Shown here: positions 34,212-46,521 of the stretch, in pieces
Position numbering within the stretch: the first letter of the stretch is position 1
Layout of the letters: each line of letters starts with the position of its first letter
Assembly (NCBI GenBank): GCA_012520505.1
Contig: JAAYOC010000017.1
Coordinates: forward strand, 1-64,000
Source: Oscillospiraceae bacterium
Lineage (GTDB): Bacteria > Bacillota > Clostridia > Oscillospirales > Acutalibacteraceae
Direction: 5' to 3'
DNA: 64,000 nt
Position numbers and translations under genes: made by a program
Notes under the pieces: model-generated
What the model saw: the letters and a program-made list of their open reading frames with translations, nothing else
Told to the model about the DNA's origin: nothing
Database searches by the model: none

Positions 34212-34216
34212 AAGCA

Positions 34217-34250
34217 AACAAAGAACCGACCACTTGATCGGTTCTTTGTT
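34217..34250. terminator. Bidirectional terminator between rsmA and the CinA-like gene
   Basis: AACAAAGAACCGA-ccacttga-TCGGTTCTTTGTT, perfect 13-bp stem; convergent genes. Confidence 0.9.
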
Positions 34251-34285
34251 TTTATACTTACAACATTACTTGCAGTATACTATGC

Positions 34286-35470
34286 CTATAAAACACCATA
34301 TATATTTTCTACTACAAATGAGAGTATTGCTGAAATAATTGCTGATGCGCTGATAAGACTTGAAACAGCTATCTTAATTTTACGCATCTTTTTATCTGCT
34401 TCTTCTGCTTCTATATTTGCTTTTACAACACTCTCATCTGTAAATTGAGGAATTGCATATCCTGTATCAGCCCAAAGATCAAGCATCCTAAAAAGTTCTT
34501 CAATCGCTTTATATATTAATTGTGGAGGTGTTTCGCCCGGTTCTGCTACAAGTTTTGCGACATTTGCATTTTCTTTATCTGCAATACAAACATACATAAA
34601 AAACTGTGTTTCTCCATTTTCTTCCACAAGTGAAAAAACTTTTGTAATTGCTGCACCTACACTATTTGAAGAGTTAATAAGAGCTCCATTTGCAAGATTA
34701 ATAACATATTCTCGTGCTGACATATCTTCTTTCTCTGTAACATAAGCAGACACAAATACTACTTTACTAAGATCGACAGCAGTTGTAGAAATAGTACCAA
34801 GAAAATCTACTGTCTTCGTATTTGCAATAGCAACTGAAAGACCTTTACTTTGAAGTTTCTTTACTGCCGCCTTTATTGCATTTGCATCATAAAGTAATTC
34901 TTGTGTTGAACCCTTCCTTATAGCTACTCTATCCGCTATCACATTTTTCAAAGGATCTGCTTGTAGCAAAGACATATCCATATTTGCTCTTACATAAGGT
35001 TGAAGACCAGTATTGATAATGTAATCTATTCTCTTATCATCAAGAGGTAAAACTATAAGAAGTTGCTTTTTTGCCTTTATTGCAAAGCCCGAATAAAGAC
35101 CATCTTGAGAAAAAAGAGGAGTAGAACCACTTGGAATCAGGGCTTGCTCTTCAACAAACACCGGATCTAAATCCGGATGTGATTCAAGTGCCATCTTTAT
35201 AATAGTTTTATTTGGTTTGCTTTTCAGTTTAAAAGCATTACAAATAAAAGCTTTAAAAGCTTTATAAAGTCCCGGCTCTGAACCTACAACTACAATATTG
35301 TTGTTAGCAACTGCGGTTGAAAGTTCTTCAAGGAACTGCTTCTCATTAGTAAAATTTTTAAAAGTATACTCTTCATCAAGTATGGATTTAAAAGCATTTT
35401 CAATTGCAACTTGTGATTCTTTTACACTAGGAGAAACTTCAACACCCATTGAAAAAAGATTCAGTATCAT
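34286..35470 (-). CDS. Degenerate CinA-like protein with C-terminal TM anchor
   Basis: By-eye similarity to CinA N-terminal MoCF-like region (EEQALIPSGSTPLFSQDGLYSGFAIKAKKQLLIVLPL) and to the PncC domain, but catalytic motifs are lost; C-terminal KIAVSSLISASAIISAILSFVV helix. Confidence 0.6.
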   Translation of the reverse strand: MILNLFSMGVEVSPSVKESQVAIENAFKSILDEEYTFKNFTNEKQFLEELSTAVANNNIVVVGSEPGLYKAFKAFICNAFKLKSKPNKTIIKMALESHPDLDPVFVEEQALIPSGSTPLFSQDGLYSGFAIKAKKQLLIVLPLDDKRIDYIINTGLQPYVRANMDMSLLQADPLKNVIADRVAIRKGSTQELLYDANAIKAAVKKLQSKGLSVAIANTKTVDFLGTISTTAVDLSKVVFVSAYVTEKEDMSAREYVINLANGALINSSNSVGAAITKVFSLVEENGETQFFMYVCIADKENANVAKLVAEPGETPPQLIYKAIEELFRMLDLWADTGYAIPQFTDESVVKANIEAEEADKKMRKIKIAVSSLISASAIISAILSFVVENIYGVL

Positions 35471-35498
35471 TTTAATACCACTTTCCTATAAATTAAAC

Positions 35499-38159
35499 TT
35501 ATGCTTTCCATTGAGGCACATCCTTATAAGGATTTGTCTTGCCGTTTGCACTATACCAAGCTTGTGGATATCTTGGATTTTCATTAATAACAACCTTTGA
35601 CATATCAACTTCTTCGCTCTCGCCGTCTCTGATTAAACGACCTACGACTACGAGTCTTGCGTTATCAAATTCATACGTGCAAGTTGAAAGAGTAATAAGC
35701 TTATCTTCAGGCATAATTGTTACACCTGTTGTGTAAAGCTTCCGCTGGTTAATTTGATCAATAAATCCTGCAAAAGTTTCAATACTGGCAAAATTAGGAC
35801 TAGTGTAATCAAACACATACCCACCTAAATCACCGGCAGCTGTACCGTTAGAAATAAACACAGCATACACCTTAAATTTATAGTTCTCATAAAGTGTGTT
35901 GTACTCAATAATTGGATTTTTTTTGAATCCTTCAATATCTTTATACTCTCTAAGAGCTGTAAACATTTGTGTATCACGTCTCATTGAATGACCATAAATG
36001 ACATTATTTTTATCAAGTACCTGTGCATTGTTGGTCGCACCAAGAAACATTGTGCCATAAGCACTTGAATTCTTTTTAAAATCACGTTTTAAATAAAATG
36101 AATTGTCAGCCGCTTGAACAACCGGATAATCAATACCAAGGTCCGAAATTCTAATCCAACCAACAAGGTCTTGATTTAAAGCATATAAATCAACAAACTT
36201 TGTTTGCATTCCTGAAGGAAATTGAATATCTGGATATTGAGCATGAACCGCACTCCACTCTATCTGAGAATTTTCACCAGATGTCATTATGTTAGAAAGT
36301 TCAGTTGAAATCTTTTTTTGTTGGTTTGTTCCGATAAACGAGATAAGAAAATAAATACCGCAACCAATAAGAACGAGAACAGAAACAATAAGAACTATTT
36401 TTCTAATTATTTCAAGTGCAGAATCACCCTTAACCGGGAAGATAGCTGCTAACCCTTTTTTTGTCCCTTTTCGCTCTGCTGTTGGCATCTCATTTACAGG
36501 TGCTCTTTTAACCTTTTCAGCTTTTTTAGCTTCTTTTGCCTCTTTTGCTAATCTTGCTTTTTCAGCCTTCTCTACTTTAGCCTGAGCTTTAGCCTCAATT
36601 CTTTCCGCCTTTTTAGCTTCTTTTTCCGCTTGTTTTTCAGAAATTGAAACATCATCACTTTCCGAAACGAGCCATGTCATATCCTCTATAGGGGCATCCA
36701 TCACTACCGATGAAGGAGTAATAGGTATTCCCGGTTCTTCTATAGGCTCCTCTGTCACCGGTACATATTCCTGTTCTAATGAATCTCTTTCCTTATCGAA
36801 ATTATTAAGAATCGAATTCATATATTCCCAATACTCTGGTCCCTTTTCTTCTTCAAAAACAGAGTTTGAGCTAATATCTTGAATTATATTTGCCGGTGTT
36901 TCTGTTACAACCATGTCCGGTACAACAGCTGCCGGTTTCTCGGTAATAACCATATCCGGTACAACAGCTGCCGGTTTCTCGGTAATAACCATATCTGGAA
37001 CAACAGCTGCCGGCTCCTCAGTAATAACCATATCTGGAGCAACAGCTACCGGTTTCTCTACTACCTCAAATTGTTGCATAAGTTGTTCCATAACTAGTTT
37101 AGACACATCGGACTCTGCTGAAGTCTCTGTTTCCTCTGTCTCTAGTGATGCCGTCGTCTCCACAAAATCTACTGGAACAGATTGATCAACTGTTACTGAT
37201 TTTGGTTGTTCAACTGCTACAGATTCTAATTCCGATTGCTCAACTGATGCAGATTCTGATTCTAATTGTTCGACTGATGCTGATGCAGCAGTTTCTTCTG
37301 TTTCATCTGCATCACCCATAGAAACAAACATTGCCTTCATTGAAGCCATAAAATCAACCTCAGGTGCTTCCGGCTCAGAAATTGTTTCTACCACTCCCTC
37401 TGATCGGTCGAAACTAGGAGGCGGTACTGGTTCTACTAAACTTGATGATTCGTGAAAAAGTGGTTCCGAATTGTTTTTAGCAGAAACATTACCGTTATAT
37501 ACATTGAGTGTTTTATGAGTAAATGCGTCTGTTTCGTCCTCTTGACGTGCTTTTTCTTCTACTTCAGCAATATCAAAATTAGGTGTTTGATCATTAAAAA
37601 CATTTTCATCAGGAAATTTTATTTCTTCTATTGAAGGATTCGTATCTTGCATAAACCCACCATAATTATGATTCGAAATTGTTTCTTCTTCGAAACCATA
37701 CTCCTCAAAAATTGTTTTTGGAATAACTACCTCCGGATGTGCAGATGGTGCAACTTGCGGTGCCTGCATCTGAGGTGGCTGAACCTGTGGTGGCTGCATG
37801 TAATTAGATTGTGGTTCTTCATAAATTGGTTGCTGTATTACAGATTGTGGTTCTTCATAAATTGGTTGCTGTATTACAGGCTGTGGTTCCTCATAAGTTG
37901 GTTGCTGTATTACAGGCTGTGGTTCCTCATAAACCGGTTGTTCAAACTGTACCTGTGTTTGAACCTGCTCCTGCTCCGACTGTGGTTGCACATAACCGGG
38001 TTGCAATTGATCAAAATCAGGTTGCGATGTTTGTTGAGCATAGCCTGATTGTGCCTCTTGCGATTGCTCCGGTATAGTCGGATAGTAAGGTTGCTGTGGT
38101 ATATGATTTTCTTTTGATTCTACAGGCATATTTGGGTAATAATTATTTTGATCTGACAA
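35499..38159 (-). CDS. Class B sortase with long repetitive N-terminal cytoplasmic region
   Basis: C-terminal sortase motifs YGHSMRRDTQMF and TLSTCTYEFDNARLVVVGR; single internal TM (IIRKIVLIVSVLVLIGCGIYFLISF); about 600 aa disordered N-terminus. Confidence 0.92.
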   Translation of the reverse strand: MSDQNNYYPNMPVESKENHIPQQPYYPTIPEQSQEAQSGYAQQTSQPDFDQLQPGYVQPQSEQEQVQTQVQFEQPVYEEPQPVIQQPTYEEPQPVIQQPIYEEPQSVIQQPIYEEPQSNYMQPPQVQPPQMQAPQVAPSAHPEVVIPKTIFEEYGFEEETISNHNYGGFMQDTNPSIEEIKFPDENVFNDQTPNFDIAEVEEKARQEDETDAFTHKTLNVYNGNVSAKNNSEPLFHESSSLVEPVPPPSFDRSEGVVETISEPEAPEVDFMASMKAMFVSMGDADETEETAASASVEQLESESASVEQSELESVAVEQPKSVTVDQSVPVDFVETTASLETEETETSAESDVSKLVMEQLMQQFEVVEKPVAVAPDMVITEEPAAVVPDMVITEKPAAVVPDMVITEKPAAVVPDMVVTETPANIIQDISSNSVFEEEKGPEYWEYMNSILNNFDKERDSLEQEYVPVTEEPIEEPGIPITPSSVVMDAPIEDMTWLVSESDDVSISEKQAEKEAKKAERIEAKAQAKVEKAEKARLAKEAKEAKKAEKVKRAPVNEMPTAERKGTKKGLAAIFPVKGDSALEIIRKIVLIVSVLVLIGCGIYFLISFIGTNQQKKISTELSNIMTSGENSQIEWSAVHAQYPDIQFPSGMQTKFVDLYALNQDLVGWIRISDLGIDYPVVQAADNSFYLKRDFKKNSSAYGTMFLGATNNAQVLDKNNVIYGHSMRRDTQMFTALREYKDIEGFKKNPIIEYNTLYENYKFKVYAVFISNGTAAGDLGGYVFDYTSPNFASIETFAGFIDQINQRKLYTTGVTIMPEDKLITLSTCTYEFDNARLVVVGRLIRDGESEEVDMSKVVINENPRYPQAWYSANGKTNPYKDVPQWKA
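36909..37064. repeat. 39-bp tandem coding repeat (EKPAAVVPDMVIT x4)
   Basis: Four units of 39 bp starting at 36909, 36948, 36987 and 37026 inside the sortase gene. Confidence 0.92.
37807..37950. repeat. 36-bp tandem coding repeat (PxYEEPQPVIQQ x4)
   Basis: Four 36-bp units at 37807, 37843, 37879 and 37915 inside the sortase gene. Confidence 0.92.
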
Positions 38160-38171
38160 GTGAATTCCTCC

Positions 38172-39512
38172 TTACTTGTTTGCAGTAGTGTCATTTTGTT
38201 GATTTATAGCATATGAGTTCACATATTTTGTAACAAAATTAAAACCTGAATTGTCCTCTGTTTCACTACTTCTTGTACTCTTAAGCAAAATTATCATACT
38301 TACAAGGAGTAACACACAACAGATAACAACAAATCCTTTTCGTATAATCTCGAAAATGCCATCAGCCTGAGTTGGAACAAACTGTTCCACAATTTTAGGA
38401 AGAATTTTAAACTCGGCACTTACTGGTTTTGCTCCATCATCTAAATCTCTTTTATCAGTTGTTTCTTCAACCAACACTGACATTTCAAAATATTCAGCCT
38501 TCTTTTTCTTTAATGTCTCTTTCCGTTCTTTTTCTTTTTTTGGTTCTTCCTCTAGTTCTTTTTTTGACTTTGGCTTTTTCTCTTCCGGTATTTCAGATTC
38601 AACCGTAGCATCAACTTCTAGACTGTAAATCAATATATTTTCATTATCCGTCTTTTCTACTTTTCCACGAGGTTTTCTCTTTGATTTACCTTTACCTTTT
38701 GGCTTTTTAGAAGTTGTTTTTGATTCTTTTTTAGGTTTATCTTTTTCTTCTTTAACTTCTTCACCTTTCAAACCTTTAAGCTGCTTATCTATATCTAAAA
38801 AAGCGCTTTCCAGCAATTTCTGCTTATCCTTTGGAGTTTCTAAATAACCTTTAGAACGTTCAATCTGTTTTTCTTCGGTCTTTTTTAATTCCTTCTTATT
38901 TTTATCTTTTTCTTCTTTTGTTTTTTTCTTAGACTCTTCAGTCTTTTTCTTAGTCGTTGTTTTTTTCTTAGACTCATCAGTCTTTTTCTTAGTCGTTGTT
39001 TTCTTTTTAGAAGCCTCTTCTTTTACTTCAGTGGCCTTTTCCTTAACTGTTGTCTTTTTTTCAGCTTCCTTTTCATCTTTATCTTTTTCTTCTACTTTTT
39101 CCGTTTTCTTAGAAGTTGTTTTCTTTTTGGAAGTTTCTTTTTTAGTTTCAGTTTTCTTTTCTTTCGGTTTCTCTTCTTTTTTCGCCTTTTTCGATTCTTC
39201 TTTTTTCTTTGAATCTTCAACCTTTTCCGTTACACTTTCTGCCTTTTTTGAATCTTCAATCTTCTTTTTTGAAGCAGCTTTCTTTTTAGAAGCCTCTTCT
39301 TTTACTTCAGTAGTCTTTTTATTTGAAACTGATTCTTTTTTCGACTTTTCTTTTTTAGAAGCTTCATCAACTGTGTTAATTTCTTTTTTAGAAACTTCCT
39401 CCTCTTTAGAAGTTTCCGTCGCTTGAGCAATTATCTCTTCAAGTGATGTCTGGCCCTCTAAAATATTTTTCTCCTGTTTAGTTTTTTTCTTTGAATTCTT
39501 CTTTTGTGCCAC
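38172..39512 (-). CDS. Lys/Glu-rich low-complexity protein with one C-terminal TM
   Basis: KKTTTKKKTDESKKKTTTKKKTEESKKK repeats; TM FEIIRKGFVVICCVLLLVSMIILL; 12 bp upstream of the sortase gene. Confidence 0.85.
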   Translation of the reverse strand: MAQKKNSKKKTKQEKNILEGQTSLEEIIAQATETSKEEEVSKKEINTVDEASKKEKSKKESVSNKKTTEVKEEASKKKAASKKKIEDSKKAESVTEKVEDSKKKEESKKAKKEEKPKEKKTETKKETSKKKTTSKKTEKVEEKDKDEKEAEKKTTVKEKATEVKEEASKKKTTTKKKTDESKKKTTTKKKTEESKKKTKEEKDKNKKELKKTEEKQIERSKGYLETPKDKQKLLESAFLDIDKQLKGLKGEEVKEEKDKPKKESKTTSKKPKGKGKSKRKPRGKVEKTDNENILIYSLEVDATVESEIPEEKKPKSKKELEEEPKKEKERKETLKKKKAEYFEMSVLVEETTDKRDLDDGAKPVSAEFKILPKIVEQFVPTQADGIFEIIRKGFVVICCVLLLVSMIILLKSTRSSETEDNSGFNFVTKYVNSYAINQQNDTTANK

Positions 39513-39518
39513 GAATCA

Positions 39519-39995
39519 TCACCTTCCTATCAAATATTCTTTGAGCATTTCAAGTGCGGTTTTTAAAGCTATTTCTCTATTATATTCCCGCTCTCCTTGA
39601 GTTTTTGTATTTATTTCGGTTACTTTTACATTTTCTGCATCAACTAAAGCTATATAAATTTCTCCTTCAGGATGACCGTTTAAATCTCCCGGACCGGCAA
39701 CACCCGTAACTCCGATTCCTATATCGGCATTGCCATTTTTTCTTGCTCCCTGTGCCATCTCAATTGCAGTATTTTTCGAAGTCGCTGTAAATTCATCTAT
39801 GGTTTCTTTCTTTACACCGAGGTATTTAATTTTAACATCGTTTGAATATGACACTATACCGTATTCAAAAAAATCAGAAGAACCTGCAATATCTGTAAGT
39901 GTTTTTGCAATAAGCCCTCCCGTACACGATTCAGCAAGCGCAACTTTTTTCCCTTGACTTCTCAAAAGTTCTGCAACTTCTTCGACCATTCCCAT
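39519..39995 (-). CDS. pncC: Nicotinamide-nucleotide amidase, stand-alone CinA C-terminal domain
   Basis: VALAESCTGGLIAKTLTDIAGSSDFFEYGIVSYSN, IGIGVTGVAGPGD. Confidence 0.94.
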   Translation of the reverse strand: MGMVEEVAELLRSQGKKVALAESCTGGLIAKTLTDIAGSSDFFEYGIVSYSNDVKIKYLGVKKETIDEFTATSKNTAIEMAQGARKNGNADIGIGVTGVAGPGDLNGHPEGEIYIALVDAENVKVTEINTKTQGEREYNREIALKTALEMLKEYLIGR

Positions 39996-40035: not shown

Positions 40036-41223
40036 TCAATTTTCTCTAACAGACGCATCTATAATTACAAATTTTGTGTTTTTAACTGCTATCCCTATAA
40101 GCTCATCTATGTTAAGTGCTTTTTCAGCTTCTGCCACTTCATCTAAAGTTGGACGAAGCTTTGGATGTTTTGGTACAAATATCGTACAACAATCCTCATA
40201 TGGTTGTATTGATATATCAAATGTATCAATCTTCCTTGAAATAGCGACTATTTCATTTTTATCCATCCCTATAAGTGGCCTAAATATTGGAATATTTGCA
40301 ACAATATCTGTACAAGCGATTGATGGTAATGTCTGACTAGCTACTTGTCCTAAACTTTCGCCGGTAATAATTGCAGAACACCCCTGTTTTTTTGCAATTT
40401 TTTCTGTTGTGCGCATCATCATTCTTCGCATAATGATTGTAACTAATTCTTCAGGACAATCATCCTTAATGCGCTCTTGAATTTCAGTAAACGGAACTAT
40501 AAATGTATTTATTTTTCCACTATATTCCGAAACCTTTGAAAGTAAATCAAGTACTTTTTGTTCAGCCCGAGCACTTGTATATGGCGGCGACGCAAAATGT
40601 ACTGCATCAAGTACAAGTCCTCGCTTCGCCATAGTCCAAGCTGCTACAGGGCTGTCTATTCCACCGGAAATCATAATTACTGCACGTCCTGATGTGCCTA
40701 CCGGCATACCACCCGCTCCCTTTATTTGATTTCCGTGGATAAAAGCATAATTATCTCTAACTTCGACAGTTACTACAATATCTGGATTGTGTACGTCCAC
40801 TTTTAAATGATGATTTTTTGAAAGAATATATCCGCCAAGCTCATTACAAATTTCAGGTGATTTTAACGGGAATTTTTTATCCGAACGCTTCGCTTCTACC
40901 TTGAAAGTTTTAAAAGAAACTAAAGTGTCCTCCAAATATTTTACAGCTGTCTTTTTAATTGTTTCTATTTCTTTTTCACAAGCTGCGGCGATTGAGAAAC
41001 CTGCAATACCAAAAACTTTTGAAATAACTTCTTTTACGGCTTCCATATCCGGATTTTTAGATATGGGTTCTATCACCATTGTCGATTGAGACCTTGTTAT
41101 TGAAAAATCCATTATATTACTAAGTCTTCTTTTTAAATTTTTCACAAGAATGTCTTCAAAAGTACTTCTATTAAGACCCTTAAGTGCTAGCTCACCATAC
41201 TTGATAAGTATTATCTCCTTCAT
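40036..41223 (-). CDS. thiI: tRNA 4-thiouridine synthase / thiazole biosynthesis protein ThiI (no rhodanese domain)
   Basis: N-terminal THUMP region, SGGIDSPVAAWTMAKRG PP-loop, IITGESLGQVASQTL, PYEDCCTIFVPKHP. Confidence 0.95.
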   Translation of the reverse strand: MKEIILIKYGELALKGLNRSTFEDILVKNLKRRLSNIMDFSITRSQSTMVIEPISKNPDMEAVKEVISKVFGIAGFSIAAACEKEIETIKKTAVKYLEDTLVSFKTFKVEAKRSDKKFPLKSPEICNELGGYILSKNHHLKVDVHNPDIVVTVEVRDNYAFIHGNQIKGAGGMPVGTSGRAVIMISGGIDSPVAAWTMAKRGLVLDAVHFASPPYTSARAEQKVLDLLSKVSEYSGKINTFIVPFTEIQERIKDDCPEELVTIIMRRMMMRTTEKIAKKQGCSAIITGESLGQVASQTLPSIACTDIVANIPIFRPLIGMDKNEIVAISRKIDTFDISIQPYEDCCTIFVPKHPKLRPTLDEVAEAEKALNIDELIGIAVKNTKFVIIDASVREN

Positions 41224-42380
41224 TAAAGTTTAACCTTTCTAAGAGTATTGTTTGCTTGTTTAATCATCTTTGCAAGGTAAAGTACTTCTTTCTCTGTATT
41301 GAAACGAGAAAAGCTAATTCTAATTGCAGAATCTATTCTTTCATTACTTAGTCCCATTTCTGTTAAAATGACACTTCTTTGACCCCTTGAACAAGCGGAC
41401 CCTGTTGAAACATATACGCCATGTTCAGATAAATAATTTTTAAGAACTTCAGAAGGAAGTCCTATCAACGAAATATTTAAGATATAAGGAATTGATTCTT
41501 TTCCAGAGTTTTCTACCAAATTATCCAAATCTTTTAATTCTGCCAAAAGCTTCTTTTTAAGCAGTTTTACTTTTTCATAATTTTGCTTTATTTCGTCCTC
41601 TTTGATTTCATCGACAGCAGCACTAAAGCCTGCAATCCCCGGCACACCCTGTGTTCCGGATCTTATATTTCCCTCATGTCCTCCACCAAGCACATACGGA
41701 ACAAGCCTTGTACCTTTCTTTACATAAAGGGCTCCGACACCTTTTGGTCCGTGAACTTTATGTGCACTTACACTTATAAGATCTGCTCCAAGCAAACTAG
41801 GTTTTACTTTAATCTTTCCAAATGCCTGTACTGCATCAACATGAAGCATAGCTGGAGCATTTGCACTCTTAATTGCTTTTGCTGCGGCCTTTATTGGCTG
41901 AACACTTCCAACCTCACTATTTACATATGCAAGGCTAACAAGAATAGTATCCTTCGTGATAGCAGGAAAAAGATCTTCCTCTTTTACAGCACCATATTCA
42001 TCAACCGGAAGTTTTACTACATCATATCCTTGCTCTGAAAGTCTATCAATACACTTTGAAACTGATGGATGTTCAATTGAAGTTGTAACTATTCTTTTCC
42101 CTTTTCGCTTTAAAGCTTCTACAGCACCAAAGATTGCAATATTATTACTTTCAGTACCACCAGATGTAAAAAATATTTCATCTTCCCTACAATAAAGTGC
42201 TTTTGCAAGAGATTTTCTTGAGCTTTCCAAAAGATTCGCCGCATCATCTCCGATTTTATGTGACGAAGAAGGATTTCCATAATTTTCCGTCAATGCTTTT
42301 ACCATTGCTTTCACTACTGAATTTAGTGGTTTTGTTGTTGCACTATTGTCAAAATAACACTGCAAAACTGTTCCCTCCAA
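41223..42380 (-). CDS. Cysteine desulfurase
   Basis: CYFDNSATTKPL, SGGTESNNIAIFG, SAHKVHGPKGVGALYVKKG, STGSACSRGQRS. Confidence 0.95.
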   Translation of the reverse strand: MEGTVLQCYFDNSATTKPLNSVVKAMVKALTENYGNPSSSHKIGDDAANLLESSRKSLAKALYCREDEIFFTSGGTESNNIAIFGAVEALKRKGKRIVTTSIEHPSVSKCIDRLSEQGYDVVKLPVDEYGAVKEEDLFPAITKDTILVSLAYVNSEVGSVQPIKAAAKAIKSANAPAMLHVDAVQAFGKIKVKPSLLGADLISVSAHKVHGPKGVGALYVKKGTRLVPYVLGGGHEGNIRSGTQGVPGIAGFSAAVDEIKEDEIKQNYEKVKLLKKKLLAELKDLDNLVENSGKESIPYILNISLIGLPSEVLKNYLSEHGVYVSTGSACSRGQRSVILTEMGLSNERIDSAIRISFSRFNTEKEVLYLAKMIKQANNTLRKVKL

Positions 42381-42473: not shown

Positions 42474-42501
42474 ACAGGAGCTGTCTTTCGACAACTCCTG
42501 T
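42474..42501 (-). terminator. Terminator downstream of the rnfDEA-like cluster
   Basis: ACAGGAGcTGTC-tttc-GACAaCTCCTGT stem with a T run on the minus strand. Confidence 0.8.
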
Positions 42502-42512
42502 ATACTTTTTCC

Positions 42513-43127
42513 TTAGAAAAATAATGCTTTTCCGGTAAAACCGGTAAATGCAATAGATAAAATTGCAATATACATAAAGAGTGCTGGAATTCCTTTAAAA
42601 CTTTCCGGAATTTCAGGATTTGCTTCTATTTTTTTCATTCCAAAATGAATAAAAACTGTTGCTAATATAAACGCAATGCCTGCACCAAAACCTTGGGCAA
42701 TAGATTCACCTACCGTACAAGCTGCTTTTTCATTGATAAAAGGCACTACAAATACTAACGTATTAAATGCTGCAACGGCGGTTTGTCTAAAAAATATTTC
42801 CTTTTCTTCCTCAGTCCAAGAAGACCCTTTAAGAGCTGTTCTTAAAACTGCAATTGTAATTAGAAAAATTTCTATAAGAACAATTGCATAAACAACAAGT
42901 GACACTGTAATTGATGCAGCTTTAAGTGCTGGAATAAATAACAAAATTCGACAAATAAACGATGTAATAGTTGAGAAAAAAACAATTGTTATCGAAAAAA
43001 GCATAAGTTGTCTTGGTCTTGCTGCACTTCGAATAGATTCACTAATACCGTAACCGCCGGTAAAAACGAGGTTTTGGGCGAACACAACATACATAAATGC
43101 TGCAAAAAATGCTGAAATAATGCTCAT
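42513..43127 (-). CDS. RnfA/NqrE-like membrane protein
   Basis: Six-TM pattern, AQNLVFTGGYGISESIRSAARPRQL, FVVPFINEKAACTVGESIAQGFGAGIAFILATVFI. Confidence 0.8.
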   Translation of the reverse strand: MSIISAFFAAFMYVVFAQNLVFTGGYGISESIRSAARPRQLMLFSITIVFFSTITSFICRILLFIPALKAASITVSLVVYAIVLIEIFLITIAVLRTALKGSSWTEEEKEIFFRQTAVAAFNTLVFVVPFINEKAACTVGESIAQGFGAGIAFILATVFIHFGMKKIEANPEIPESFKGIPALFMYIAILSIAFTGFTGKALFF

Positions 43128-44692
43128 TTTTCATCACCCTCCCTTTCTATTGGAAGTTCATTGAGAATGTCGTCAAGTGATTTTGACATGAGCTCCTCCA
43201 GTTCCTTCGATTTACGAACAAAAGTTGCATTTTTTCCCGAAGAAACCTTTTGTTTTCTCGCTTTTTCTACTTCACTTATAGTTTCTTCAATTTCTTTTGT
43301 TTCTTTAGGCTCTTTTATTTCTTCAGCTTCTTTTATTTTTATTTTATTCGCATCTTCTAATATTTCCCTTATAGTTTCTTCAACTTCATCTACAGGCTCT
43401 TTTATTTTTTCCTTTTTTTCAGTTTTTCTTACTTCTTCTTTTTTAGTTTCTTTTTCTTTTACTTCTTTCTTAGTTTCTTCAGTTTCTTCCCTTGCAATCT
43501 CTTTTACTTTTTCAACCGCTTTTTTAACTAAATCCTCTGCCGATTGTTCATAGGACTCTTCAACCTGTGGCCCAAGCTCTAATTCTAATTGTGGTTTTTC
43601 CCCTTCCTCAGGCCTTAACAATGACCGTCTTTTAAGCTTTTGTGGCTCCTCGCCTTTTATCTTCTTTGCTTGATTTCTCTTTATTCTCTGTCTTTGCTCT
43701 GGCTTAGCTTTACTTGCTGCCGCAGCCGCCGCAAAAGCTTCTGCCTCTGCTTTCGCCTTGCCTTCAGCTGAAAGATCAAGAGTTATAAATTCAAGCCTGT
43801 CTGTTCTATGAGTGACTTTTGTGCCACCTTTAATTTCTGCGCTCTTACTAATTTGTGTCTTAGATTTTGTGCCATCTTGCATTTCAGGCTTCTTGGTAAT
43901 TTGATCTTCTAATTTATCAATAATTGATTTTGATTTAAATATTGTTTCTTCCGGTACATCTTTTAATATTTCATCTGTCGATGCAGGTGTAAAAAGAACA
44001 GCTACATCTTCTTTTTCAACTGGAATCTCTTTAAGAGTTTTACGTTGTTTTTTAATTGCTGCACTTGAATTTACTGCTAATTCATCTGCAAATTCAGGAT
44101 CAAGCTTTCTAAAATAAGTACGAAGTGCAGCAGCTAGATATGCTAAAACAACAAATCCGCCCATTGGCATAAGAAAGCCTACTATTGGAGTAAAGTGTTT
44201 TATATTGTATCCCCAAATACTACCGTTTCCGAGTAATTCTCTTATAAATCCTACAACTAGTAAAACCAGCGAATACCCTATTCCTACACAAATTGAATTT
44301 ATAACAGCTTCAAATAAACCAACATTTATTCCTTCTCGTTCACATTGCCTTACAATAACGGGATTCACTGCAAGAAGTGGAAGATAAATCCCAAATACAA
44401 GCATAATTTCCGGAGCGATTTTATCTATTATAACCATGCTTACACATACAACAATCATTCCAACAAATGCGTAAAAACTCATCCTAAACCATGTTGGCAT
44501 TTTTTTGAAAACTAAAACTGTTAGTGTTTGTGCAATAACAAGTGTCACAATTGTGATAATTGACATTACTATTGCCACCTTTAAAGTTGTACAAATAGCA
44601 ACAATTGGACAAAGACCAATCATTCCTATAAGTACAGGGTTTTTAAGGAGGACTTCCTGGAAAAAATAGCTCTTATTCAGTAACGATTTCAT
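43124..44692 (-). CDS. RnfE/NqrD-like membrane protein with about 300-aa charged C-terminal extension
   Basis: NPVLIGMIGLCPIVAICTTLKVA, GIYLPLLAVNPVIVRQCE, RELLGNGSIWGYN; then a K/E/A-rich tail. Confidence 0.85.
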   Translation of the reverse strand: MKSLLNKSYFFQEVLLKNPVLIGMIGLCPIVAICTTLKVAIVMSIITIVTLVIAQTLTVLVFKKMPTWFRMSFYAFVGMIVVCVSMVIIDKIAPEIMLVFGIYLPLLAVNPVIVRQCEREGINVGLFEAVINSICVGIGYSLVLLVVGFIRELLGNGSIWGYNIKHFTPIVGFLMPMGGFVVLAYLAAALRTYFRKLDPEFADELAVNSSAAIKKQRKTLKEIPVEKEDVAVLFTPASTDEILKDVPEETIFKSKSIIDKLEDQITKKPEMQDGTKSKTQISKSAEIKGGTKVTHRTDRLEFITLDLSAEGKAKAEAEAFAAAAAASKAKPEQRQRIKRNQAKKIKGEEPQKLKRRSLLRPEEGEKPQLELELGPQVEESYEQSAEDLVKKAVEKVKEIAREETEETKKEVKEKETKKEEVRKTEKKEKIKEPVDEVEETIREILEDANKIKIKEAEEIKEPKETKEIEETISEVEKARKQKVSSGKNATFVRKSKELEELMSKSLDDILNELPIEREGDEK

Positions 44693-45836
44693 TTACAAGA
44701 ACGCCTCCTTCCTCTATAGACGGAGTCCCTACGATTCCTTCCGATTTTATTGTTCCTACTACTTCAATTTCCTTTATTGATTTTATTGTTTTCCTTGCCT
44801 TCCTTGTTTTTCTGATTTTTTTCATCTTTACATTTCTGTTTAGTGTTTTCTTTGGAGGATTCATTTGAAATTTGCTCATAACTTTTGCTCCTAAATCATC
44901 AAACTGTGCAGAAAGAGCATTCACTACAAGCACGGCAAAACATACACCCTCTTCAAATGTTCCAAAATAACGAAGCAACATCGTAATAACACCAGCCGTC
45001 AGTCCATATAAAACCTTACCTATTTGACTCTTTGGCGATGTAGCCGGATCTGAAACAAAGAATACCGCAGCAAAAAACAATAAGCCTGCAGACAACTCCA
45101 TAAAAAGAGAATATGTTCTTCCTGTAAGTATTCGTGGGAATAATACCGCCATGAAACTACAGGCAGCAAGAAAACTCACTGTTGTAATTACACCAGGTTG
45201 TCTGCGAATTATCATATATACCAGTGTGCCAAGCATGAGTATGAAGCACGAAGCACCAATAGGACCTGGTACTCGTCCCACAAACACATCAAGTATATTC
45301 AAAATATTTGTACCAATTGATTTTGATTGACTTAACATATTAGCAAGAGATGTGCCTGCCACAAATCCCGGCTCCGTAACAGCTGTTGATAGTGAACCGA
45401 TAGACAAAGAAGGATATGTAAACACATATTCCGGATAACTAATAGTTAAAAATGAAAGACCAACGGCAGCCGGAACAAATGGAACCGTGATTGCATTACC
45501 AAATGGAATTTTTGCAATTGCAATTGCAAAAACACTTCCCAATGGAGCAAGCCATAATGGTGCAGACGACGGTAAAGCCAATGCAATAACAAGGCCTGTA
45601 AATACTGCCGATAAATCTGAAATACGTTCCGGATTTTTTCTAAGAAAAACTGTGTACGAAATAACTTCAACAGCTACAGCTGCAAGTACTGAAAGGATAA
45701 TGCTTTCTGCTGCACGCAAACCATAAGTATATATTGACACAACTGAAATAACCAAAAGCATGATTATCATATCAATCATATAAGAACGCACAGCACTGTT
45801 TTCACTTTTCAGTTTTTCAGGGCTAGTTTTTTTCAT
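44673..45836 (-). CDS. RnfD/NqrB-like membrane protein with basic C-terminal tail
   Basis: SDPATSPKSQIGKVLYGLTAGVITMLLRYFGTFEEGVCFAVLVVNAL; ATG at 45836 (MKKTSPEKL) preferred over ORF start 45953, which overlaps rpe. Confidence 0.85.
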   Translation of the reverse strand: MKKTSPEKLKSENSAVRSYMIDMIIMLLVISVVSIYTYGLRAAESIILSVLAAVAVEVISYTVFLRKNPERISDLSAVFTGLVIALALPSSAPLWLAPLGSVFAIAIAKIPFGNAITVPFVPAAVGLSFLTISYPEYVFTYPSLSIGSLSTAVTEPGFVAGTSLANMLSQSKSIGTNILNILDVFVGRVPGPIGASCFILMLGTLVYMIIRRQPGVITTVSFLAACSFMAVLFPRILTGRTYSLFMELSAGLLFFAAVFFVSDPATSPKSQIGKVLYGLTAGVITMLLRYFGTFEEGVCFAVLVVNALSAQFDDLGAKVMSKFQMNPPKKTLNRNVKMKKIRKTRKARKTIKSIKEIEVVGTIKSEGIVGTPSIEEGGVLVNEIVTE

Positions 45837-45840
45837 ACTT

Positions 45841-46521
45841 TTATTCCTCTTCTTTTGGATATGCTTCCTTCGCACGTTCTTTGAGCAAGGAAATAATTTT
45901 TTTTGCATCAACTGCATTAAAAATTGTGCTGCCGGATACAAACGCATTTGCACCTGCTGCTGCAGCTTCTACAATATTTATTTCATTAATACCACCATCA
46001 ACTTCAATTACTATGTCGGCTCGACCTATTCGTCTCACCTCATCATAAATCGCTTTAACTTTTGACATCATATCTGCCATAAATGACTGTCCGCCAAAAC
46101 CCGGTTCAACTGTCATCACAAGTACTAAATCAATATCCTTAAGATATGGAAAAATTGCCTCAGCAGGCGTTTTTGGTTTAATACTCAATCCTACTTTACA
46201 TCCAAGTTCTTTAATCCTGTTAATTGTCTTAACAGGATCAGAATCCGCTTCAATATGGAACGTAATATAATCTGCTCCTGCTTCTGCAAAATCCTTTGCG
46301 TAAAATAACGGGTCTGAAATCATAAGATGTACGTCCGCAACAGCGCGCATTTTTTTCGTAAGTGCCTTTAAAACCGGAGCACCAACAGTAATGTTTGGAA
46401 CAAAATGTCCATCCATTACATCGTAATGCATCCATTGTGCACCCGCATCTTCCATTCTCGTTATTTCTTCTCCCATTTTTGCAAAATCACAAGAGAGAAG
46501 TGATGGGGAAATAATCATCAT
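45841..46521 (-). CDS. rpe: Ribulose-phosphate 3-epimerase
   Basis: ISPSLLSCDFAKMGEEI, HYDVMDGHFVPNITVGAPVLKAL, EVDGGINEINI. Confidence 0.96.
   Translation of the reverse strand: MMIISPSLLSCDFAKMGEEITRMEDAGAQWMHYDVMDGHFVPNITVGAPVLKALTKKMRAVADVHLMISDPLFYAKDFAEAGADYITFHIEADSDPVKTINRIKELGCKVGLSIKPKTPAEAIFPYLKDIDLVLVMTVEPGFGGQSFMADMMSKVKAIYDEVRRIGRADIVIEVDGGINEINIVEAAAAGANAFVSGSTIFNAVDAKKIISLLKERAKEAYPKEEE

Follow-up and report, generated by a model that had tools for sequence, protein, structure and literature searches.

A class B sortase associated with non-catalytic CinA-derived domains in a conserved module of Clostridia from gut and rumen that appears to be undescribed

Why should a class B sortase be encoded side by side with relatives of CinA, which is known as a soluble bifunctional enzyme (PMC4246079)? 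The question is raised by a minus-strand locus in a 64,000-nucleotide stretch, here called the window, of contig JAAYOC010000017.1 from an Oscillospiraceae bacterium (GCA_012520505.1). An earlier note on this DNA had pointed to four closely spaced genes, encoding a stand-alone PncC, a Lys/Glu-rich protein with one transmembrane segment, a sortase (srtB) and a CinA-like membrane protein for which we coin the name CinLk, and the open reading frames are indeed found in that arrangement, with gaps of 6, 12 and 28 bp. As will be argued, gut and rumen Clostridia carry a conserved and apparently undescribed module, of which the window is a slimmed-down member, and the association of the sortase with CinA-derived parts and with the wall enzyme SpoIID is well supported by conserved gene order, by fusions and by selection.

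CinLk gives a weak CinA match to sequence models (NF001813, E 1.7e-4), and a scan of the genome contigs with its single sequence gave no match. Its AlphaFold model, based on 63 homologues (predicted local distance difference test, pLDDT, 89; predicted template modelling score 0.58), has T. thermophilus CinA (4ct8) as top PDB match in Foldseek (E 3.7e-13); next come 3kbq, which is the N domain alone, and the PncC-type structures 5kol and 2a9s. Since the template modelling scores are 0.60-0.69 per domain on the target and 0.33 for the whole chain, the domains match and their relative placement is unsure. The profile of CinLk furthermore aligns with that of the full-length CinA of relatives over 279 columns (hhalign 99.3%, E 2.4e-20, as a single comparison), with a gap where CinA has its KH domain. 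The earlier note had described a CinA-like protein with a C-terminal transmembrane segment, and both parts of this description hold, as one such segment is predicted (residues 369-387) and similarity to CinA is found by profile as well as by structure. The deamidase motif AESCTGG has however become ANTKTVD and the Tyr/Lys stretch is missing, and mutants of the Agrobacterium PncC have shown S31 and K63 to be catalytic and Y58 and R145 to bind phosphate (PMC5384747). With the catalytic residues absent and fold and profile kept, CinLk is by these criteria a CinA by fold and descent and not a nicotinamide mononucleotide (NMN) deamidase; judged from its sequence it is a CinA-derived protein predicted to have lost both active sites together with the KH domain. 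Weak A3 matches across the order were considered as a sign that CinLk is widespread and rejected, most of them having the ordinary length of full-length CinA; only strong A3 matches or fusions were counted as CinLk.

In other genera of the window's family CinLk is a protein of 690-820 residues, consisting of CinLk proper, one transmembrane segment and a SpoIID domain recognized by Pfam (PF08486, E about 4e-9, above the cut-off; matches above the cut-off are found in L026, L028, L029, L070 and L198). The relatives are almost all metagenome-assembled genomes with mechanically called open reading frames, and module counts refer to 80 named loci found by sortase similarity and labelled Oscillospiraceae, Ruminococcaceae, Clostridia, Candidatus Fimenecus or Candidatus Onthovicinus. 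The fusion of CinLk and SpoIID occurs in 55 of these, another 8 have the two as separate genes, and in 10 CinLk lacks a SpoIID in the stretch read; the CinLk and SpoIID parts are always separated by about one transmembrane segment. The catalytic Glu of SpoIID, taken from published work (PMC6635528, PMC6221140), is present in 77 of the 79 domains covering that position. A PF08486 search of the window's own genome gave no SpoIID match, and the ectodomain is therefore considered lost there, a loss which, going by the sequences compared, appears to apply to the whole genus. The component list of the earlier note was accordingly incomplete, since the ectodomain carried by the CinLk of most relatives is not visible in the window.

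The gene order of the unit is not a peculiarity of one strain, as neighbourhood comparison found it conserved among members of the genus and, with rearrangements, across at least four families of the order. For a survey, 60 genomes of the order were picked, blind to sortases, from a shortened list of thiI matches ranked by thiI score, so that sampling was not random. A class B sortase was found 3' of thiI, in the same orientation, in 14/18 members of the window's family (f1), 13/15 of f25, 1/1 of f15 and 1/1 of f23, as against 0/25 in eleven other families, and SpoIID was present in all 13 sortase-linked loci of f25. Twelve sortase loci outside the module families, inspected after a class-wide sortase search, contained no CinA or SpoIID.

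The association is furthermore found within single chains. Pfam recognizes MoCF, KH, PncC, sortase and SpoIID domains in one protein of 1117 residues (L198, genome G311), a full CinA joined to a sortase in L143 (1039 residues), the CinA N domain with KH and sortase in L142 (891 residues) and PncC with sortase in L183 and L207. L144 joins a degenerate CinA to a sortase with Ig-like domains, and L145 (912 residues) combines CinA-like, sortase and SpoIID parts, its CinA-like part and part of the evidence for SpoIID coming from custom hidden Markov models (HMMs) built, like the others used here, from few sequences of the same loci. The sortases of seven loci (L152, L154, L155, L170, L171, L172 and L180) have a cytoplasmic N-terminus resembling the CinA N domain (95.5%, E 1.6e-8; this and all other hhalign E-values are single comparisons), with no match to the CinLk profile, and in several of these loci the sortase is followed by a further small CinA-N-like protein (96.4%, E 1.2e-9). 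Bacterial Ig-like domains (Big_2, Big_9) follow the sortase domain in L144 (8159-11602) and L207 (5202-7925).

Which CinA relative is it, then, that accompanies the sortase? The stand-alone PncC of the earlier note is a genuine PF02464/TIGR00199 member with a complete active site, ESCTGG, Tyr, Lys, Thr and Arg all being there, and it is the only PF02464 match in its own genome and therefore simply the housekeeping enzyme. In many relatives its position is taken by a full-length CinA. An intact NMN deamidase is found in the same operon at 63 of 77 sortase loci, and the active site is retained in every operon PncC or CinA copy that covers the residues; ESCTGG seemed missing in 25 of 64 copies, which was mostly due to an over-strict pattern (ESCTAG, one truncated copy). 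In seven sampled f1 genomes PncC is however located elsewhere, outside the thiI-sortase stretch, and in G186, which is 99% complete, a PncC search gave no match, and in all eight the sortase still has a CinA-derived domain or partner. Since the membrane copy of CinA is dead, and since the deamidase may be unlinked or undetected while the sortase keeps its CinA-derived partner, the link is not to pyridine-nucleotide salvage chemistry as such, and here lies the chief correction to the earlier note. The durable link is that between the sortase and non-catalytic CinA-derived domains, from which the deamidase is separable.

The sortase itself scores 164.3 bits against a TIGR03064 class B cut-off of 153.75, its best solved relatives are sortase B throughout, and its catalytic His, Cys and Arg are intact (H98, C201 and R209, invariant in alignment A1). 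It has a low-complexity cytoplasmic N-terminus of about 585 residues, in agreement with the earlier description of a class B sortase with a giant cytoplasmic N-terminus, and a conserved C-terminal tail, NPRYPQAWY..NPY. His and Cys are kept in 125 of 127 module sortase copies. A tree was built from 132 sortase domains. Of the 34 comparison sortases labelled stand-alone, 27 group in one clade (support 100/99) that is separate from the module sortases; four of the remaining seven have either a long N-terminus or little flanking sequence and may belong to the module without being labelled so. A second, short class B sortase of the window's genome (L034, G000:C49:42713-43405) is placed in the stand-alone clade. 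In f25, three or four tandem class B sortases lie between pncC and spoIID in L167, L182, L165, L168, L197, L203 and L209.

The Lys/Glu-rich protein matches no family and no sortase HMM and ends shortly after its transmembrane segment, but several observations identify its origin. At least two tandem sortases are found in 49 of 80 loci where the window has the Lys/Glu-rich gene and one sortase, so that the protein occupies the position of the first sortase of relatives. Both tandem copies mostly retain His, Cys and Arg; in L025/L065, which represent the nearest other genus, the first copy is without His and Cys, and within the genus of the window the orthologue from G007 (L022, 8333-10333; 666 residues) contains a sortase domain likewise without His and Cys (HMM E 4.7e-18), the model of which (pLDDT 85.6) has only sortase B structures as best PDB matches (2oqw and 1ng5, E 5.5e-13, Foldseek). 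In the other sampled members of the genus the protein ends just past the transmembrane segment, as in the window. The alignment of stub and G007 protein covers juxtamembrane motif, transmembrane segment and linker and stops just short of the sortase domain (hhalign 99%, E 2.9e-18), and motif and transmembrane segment also align with those of module sortases (96%, E 4.8e-9). The motif, FVPTQADGIFEIIRK, precedes the transmembrane segment of the stub and is common to module sortases; it is reported from reading the sequences, without a statistic, a regular expression having under-counted it. The best conserved piece of the stub is the transmembrane region. These comparisons point to a series from active sortase via dead sortase to transmembrane stub, in which the Lys/Glu-rich protein is what remains of a second class B sortase, once in tandem with the first, after loss of the catalytic domain. 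The single transmembrane segment seen in the earlier note thus stands (residues 392-410), whereas its reading as an unrelated disordered membrane protein does not, given the G007 intermediate.

For the closest usable pairs the ratio of nonsynonymous to synonymous substitutions (dN/dS) is about 0.09 for CinLk, 0.13 for the last 75 residues of the stub, 0.10 for PncC and 0.05 for the sortase; these are rough estimates by the simple Nei-Gojobori method with dS >1. The dead parts, CinLk and the stub, are thus indicated to be under purifying selection, and since the genus has retained the arrangement, at dN/dS values of about 0.05-0.13, it is more than a product of chance.

What might such an arrangement do? 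We give an even chance to a membrane module in which anchoring by the class B sortase and wall remodelling by SpoIID are organized by CinA-derived cytoplasmic scaffolds. Outside the cell there would be at least one class B sortase and, in most relatives, also a SpoIID-type enzyme cutting the glycan strands of peptidoglycan, and inside each wall enzyme would be attached to a CinA-derived domain without chemistry. CinA and PncC proteins are dimeric in published structures (PMC4246079, PMC5384747). The dead copies could hence form pairs among themselves, perhaps also with intact CinA/PncC, and so gather sortase and SpoIID at a single place in the membrane, where wall opening and surface-protein attachment could occur together. 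The genus of the window has on this view lost three parts, namely SpoIID, the catalytic portion of a second sortase and the N-terminal portion of its housekeeping CinA, and is left with one active sortase, a sortase-derived transmembrane stub, a CinA-like scaffold and PncC. While the association itself is well supported, we infer from it that the parts form a complex, that the CinA-derived domains serve as scaffolds and that cutting is coupled to anchoring.

Several observations speak against this proposal. Coupling of cutting to anchoring cannot apply in the window's genus, which is without SpoIID, and the module would there serve only in placing the sortase. A search for substrates with sorting signals within the 64-kb window found none. 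A few f1 genera (L160 and L175, genomes G280 and G156) have a sortase after thiI without a recognisable CinA-derived part; these sortases are diverged and lie on a long branch, and that of L160 is apparently without catalytic His and Cys. Moreover, even the sortase can decay, since the only module sortase of intact length in G006, of the same genus as the window (L023, 813-3002), reads STASFEF for STCTYEF, with Cys changed to Ala and His kept.

Among the rival explanations a nucleotide sensor is the main one. Here the CinA-derived domain would bind, but no longer convert, NMN, ADP-ribose or a related nucleotide and gate sortase or SpoIID through the transmembrane segment, so that wall work follows nicotinamide adenine dinucleotide (NAD) or DNA-repair status. 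A ligand-binding fold joined to a wall enzyme via one transmembrane segment is a usual sensor layout, both CinA domains retain their fold, and an intact deamidase shares the operon at most sortase loci. However, the motifs that hold NMN (ESCTGG, Tyr and Lys) are gone from CinLk, nearly invariant columns are few across the CinLk alignment, which is poor for a ligand pocket, and several lineages retain only an N-domain-like part. Such signal coupling is therefore regarded as improbable, and the same low standing is given to a transmembrane machine that would sense or integrate a nucleotide or NAD-related state by means of its CinA-derived cytoplasmic domain and use it for direct control of both anchoring by the sortase and glycan cutting by SpoIID. 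The strict conservation of the active site of operon PncC/CinA beside a dead paralogue, a common enzyme-pseudoenzyme pattern, and the dimeric nature of CinA (PMC4246079) would also fit recruitment of the deamidase to the membrane by pairing with dead CinLk, the sortase being a passenger. This is however made quite unlikely by the seven genomes in which PncC is unlinked from sortase and CinA-derived parts, by its apparent absence from G186, and by the fact that some sortase-CinA fusions carry dead CinA parts (L144, L145).

Two further explanations dispense with a joint function. The loss of three parts in the window's genus, the small genomes (0.9-1.8 Mb) and the lost sortase Cys of G006 could mean that the locus is vestigial there, with the sortase possibly working alone and stub and CinLk as leftovers, but open reading frames are intact across sampled genus members, dN/dS is 0.09-0.13 for the dead parts and the stub is best conserved in its transmembrane region, so that we hold decay to be doubtful at best. 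In other families of the order iscS-thiI-cinA is often found without a sortase, which might furthermore suggest that the genes for sortase and CinA-like protein owe their proximity to a stable housekeeping operon and have no function in common. Such hitch-hiking is rendered highly improbable by the independent one-chain fusions of CinA, sortase and SpoIID, and is likewise in poor agreement with the CinA-derived parts remaining with the sortase even after CinA/PncC leaves.

Every domain of the module is known, whereas the combination is not a variant of a system known to us, its function being a prediction. Class B sortases (TIGR03064), such as SrtB of S. aureus, B. anthracis, C. difficile and C. 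perfringens, have the same fold, His/Cys/Arg and membrane topology as the sortase of the window, but module sortases differ by the giant cytoplasmic N-terminus or a CinA-derived domain, by a juxtamembrane GD..EIIRK and the NPRYPQAWY..NPY tail, and by occurring in tandem copies, some of them catalytically dead. CinLk shares with CinA/PncC (COG1058, KH and NMN deamidase; 4ct8) the fold of the two outer domains and differs in having no KH domain, no active-site residues, one transmembrane segment and often a SpoIID ectodomain. To our knowledge no system linking CinA with either a sortase or SpoIID has been described. The SpoIID domain and catalytic Glu in the CinLk of relatives are those of SpoIID and SpoIID-like septal enzymes of B. 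subtilis, C. difficile and Waddlia (PMC6635528, PMC6221140), and SpoIID-like proteins also function outside sporulation (PMC6635528); module SpoIID is however part of one chain with a sortase, a dead CinA domain or both, and the window's genome is without it. The scaffoldin-anchoring sortases of cellulosome-forming Ruminococcus come from the same broad bacterial group, and one module SpoIID protein, adjoining CinLk, has a dockerin (L031, 11734-13098, with a galE-type gene next), which hints that a wall enzyme may dock on scaffoldin; no cohesin or scaffoldin was seen in the module loci read, and no link of CinA to these Ruminococcus sortases was found in the literature searched. A similar dockerin-like protein is found in the same place in L030 (1079-2365). 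Searches of the open-access literature, subscription journals and preprints not included, found no paper on class B sortase with CinA and nothing relevant on SpoIID with sortase or other combinations, and to that extent the suggestion of an undescribed system is borne out.

If confirmed, the module would provide a function for membrane-bound, non-catalytic CinA relatives and accessory parts for the class B sortases of abundant gut and rumen Clostridia, the surface biology of which has hardly been studied, and the natural one-chain fusions would be ready test objects. Were the sensor machine to be true, it would be a hitherto unknown link between NAD or nucleotide metabolism and the bacterial cell surface. 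The stub, being a sortase without the enzyme but with the membrane part, points to the membrane part as the piece that matters.

The unit is larger than the four genes originally delimited. These four do belong together, but its start lies further upstream, as the order is iscS–thiI–pncC–stub–srtB–CinLk with iscS and thiI as housekeeping context, a terminator just upstream of iscS and, as previously noted, a bidirectional one at the 3' end. A single transcript is plausible; promoter-like matches are at chance level (27 against 32 expected). Coordinates are collected in Table 1.

Table 1. Features of the iscS-to-CinLk unit, in window positions
Feature	Position	Strand	Evidence
iscS-type cysteine desulfurase, first gene of unit	41223..42380	-	PF00266 E 7.8e-73; same position in relatives
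thiI, tRNA 4-thiouridine sulfurtransferase	40036..41223	-	TIGR00342 E 7.2e-121
pncC, NMN deamidase domain, active site intact	39519..39995	-	PF02464 E 5.8e-50
Lys/Glu-rich protein with one transmembrane segment, sortase-derived stub	38172..39512	-	alignment to G007 orthologue
Transmembrane segment of stub, residues 392-410	38283..38339	-	transmembrane prediction
srtB, class B sortase	35499..38159	-	TIGR03064 E 2.8e-48; Pfam sortase E 4.3e-12
Transmembrane segment of sortase	36342..36398	-	transmembrane prediction
Extracellular sortase domain and conserved C-terminal tail	35499..36281	-	catalytic residues in alignment A1
CinLk, CinA-like membrane protein, predicted catalytically dead	34286..35470	-	AlphaFold, Foldseek
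COG1058/MoCF-like half of CinLk	34976..35470	-	hhalign to CinA; Foldseek 3kbq
PncC-like half of CinLk	34460..34888	-	hhalign; Foldseek 5kol, 2a9s
C-terminal transmembrane segment of CinLk, residues 369-387	34310..34366	-	transmembrane prediction
Bidirectional terminator, shared end of unit and convergent ksgA	34216..34251	.	hairpin search
Terminator-like hairpin between rnf-type genes (upstream) and iscS	42474..42501	-	hairpin search

Upstream of iscS, two Rnf-type membrane subunits (43124-44692 and 44673-45953, both on the minus strand) have long Lys/Glu-rich C-terminal tails, and such low-complexity extensions are therefore a wider habit of this genome and not specific to the module.

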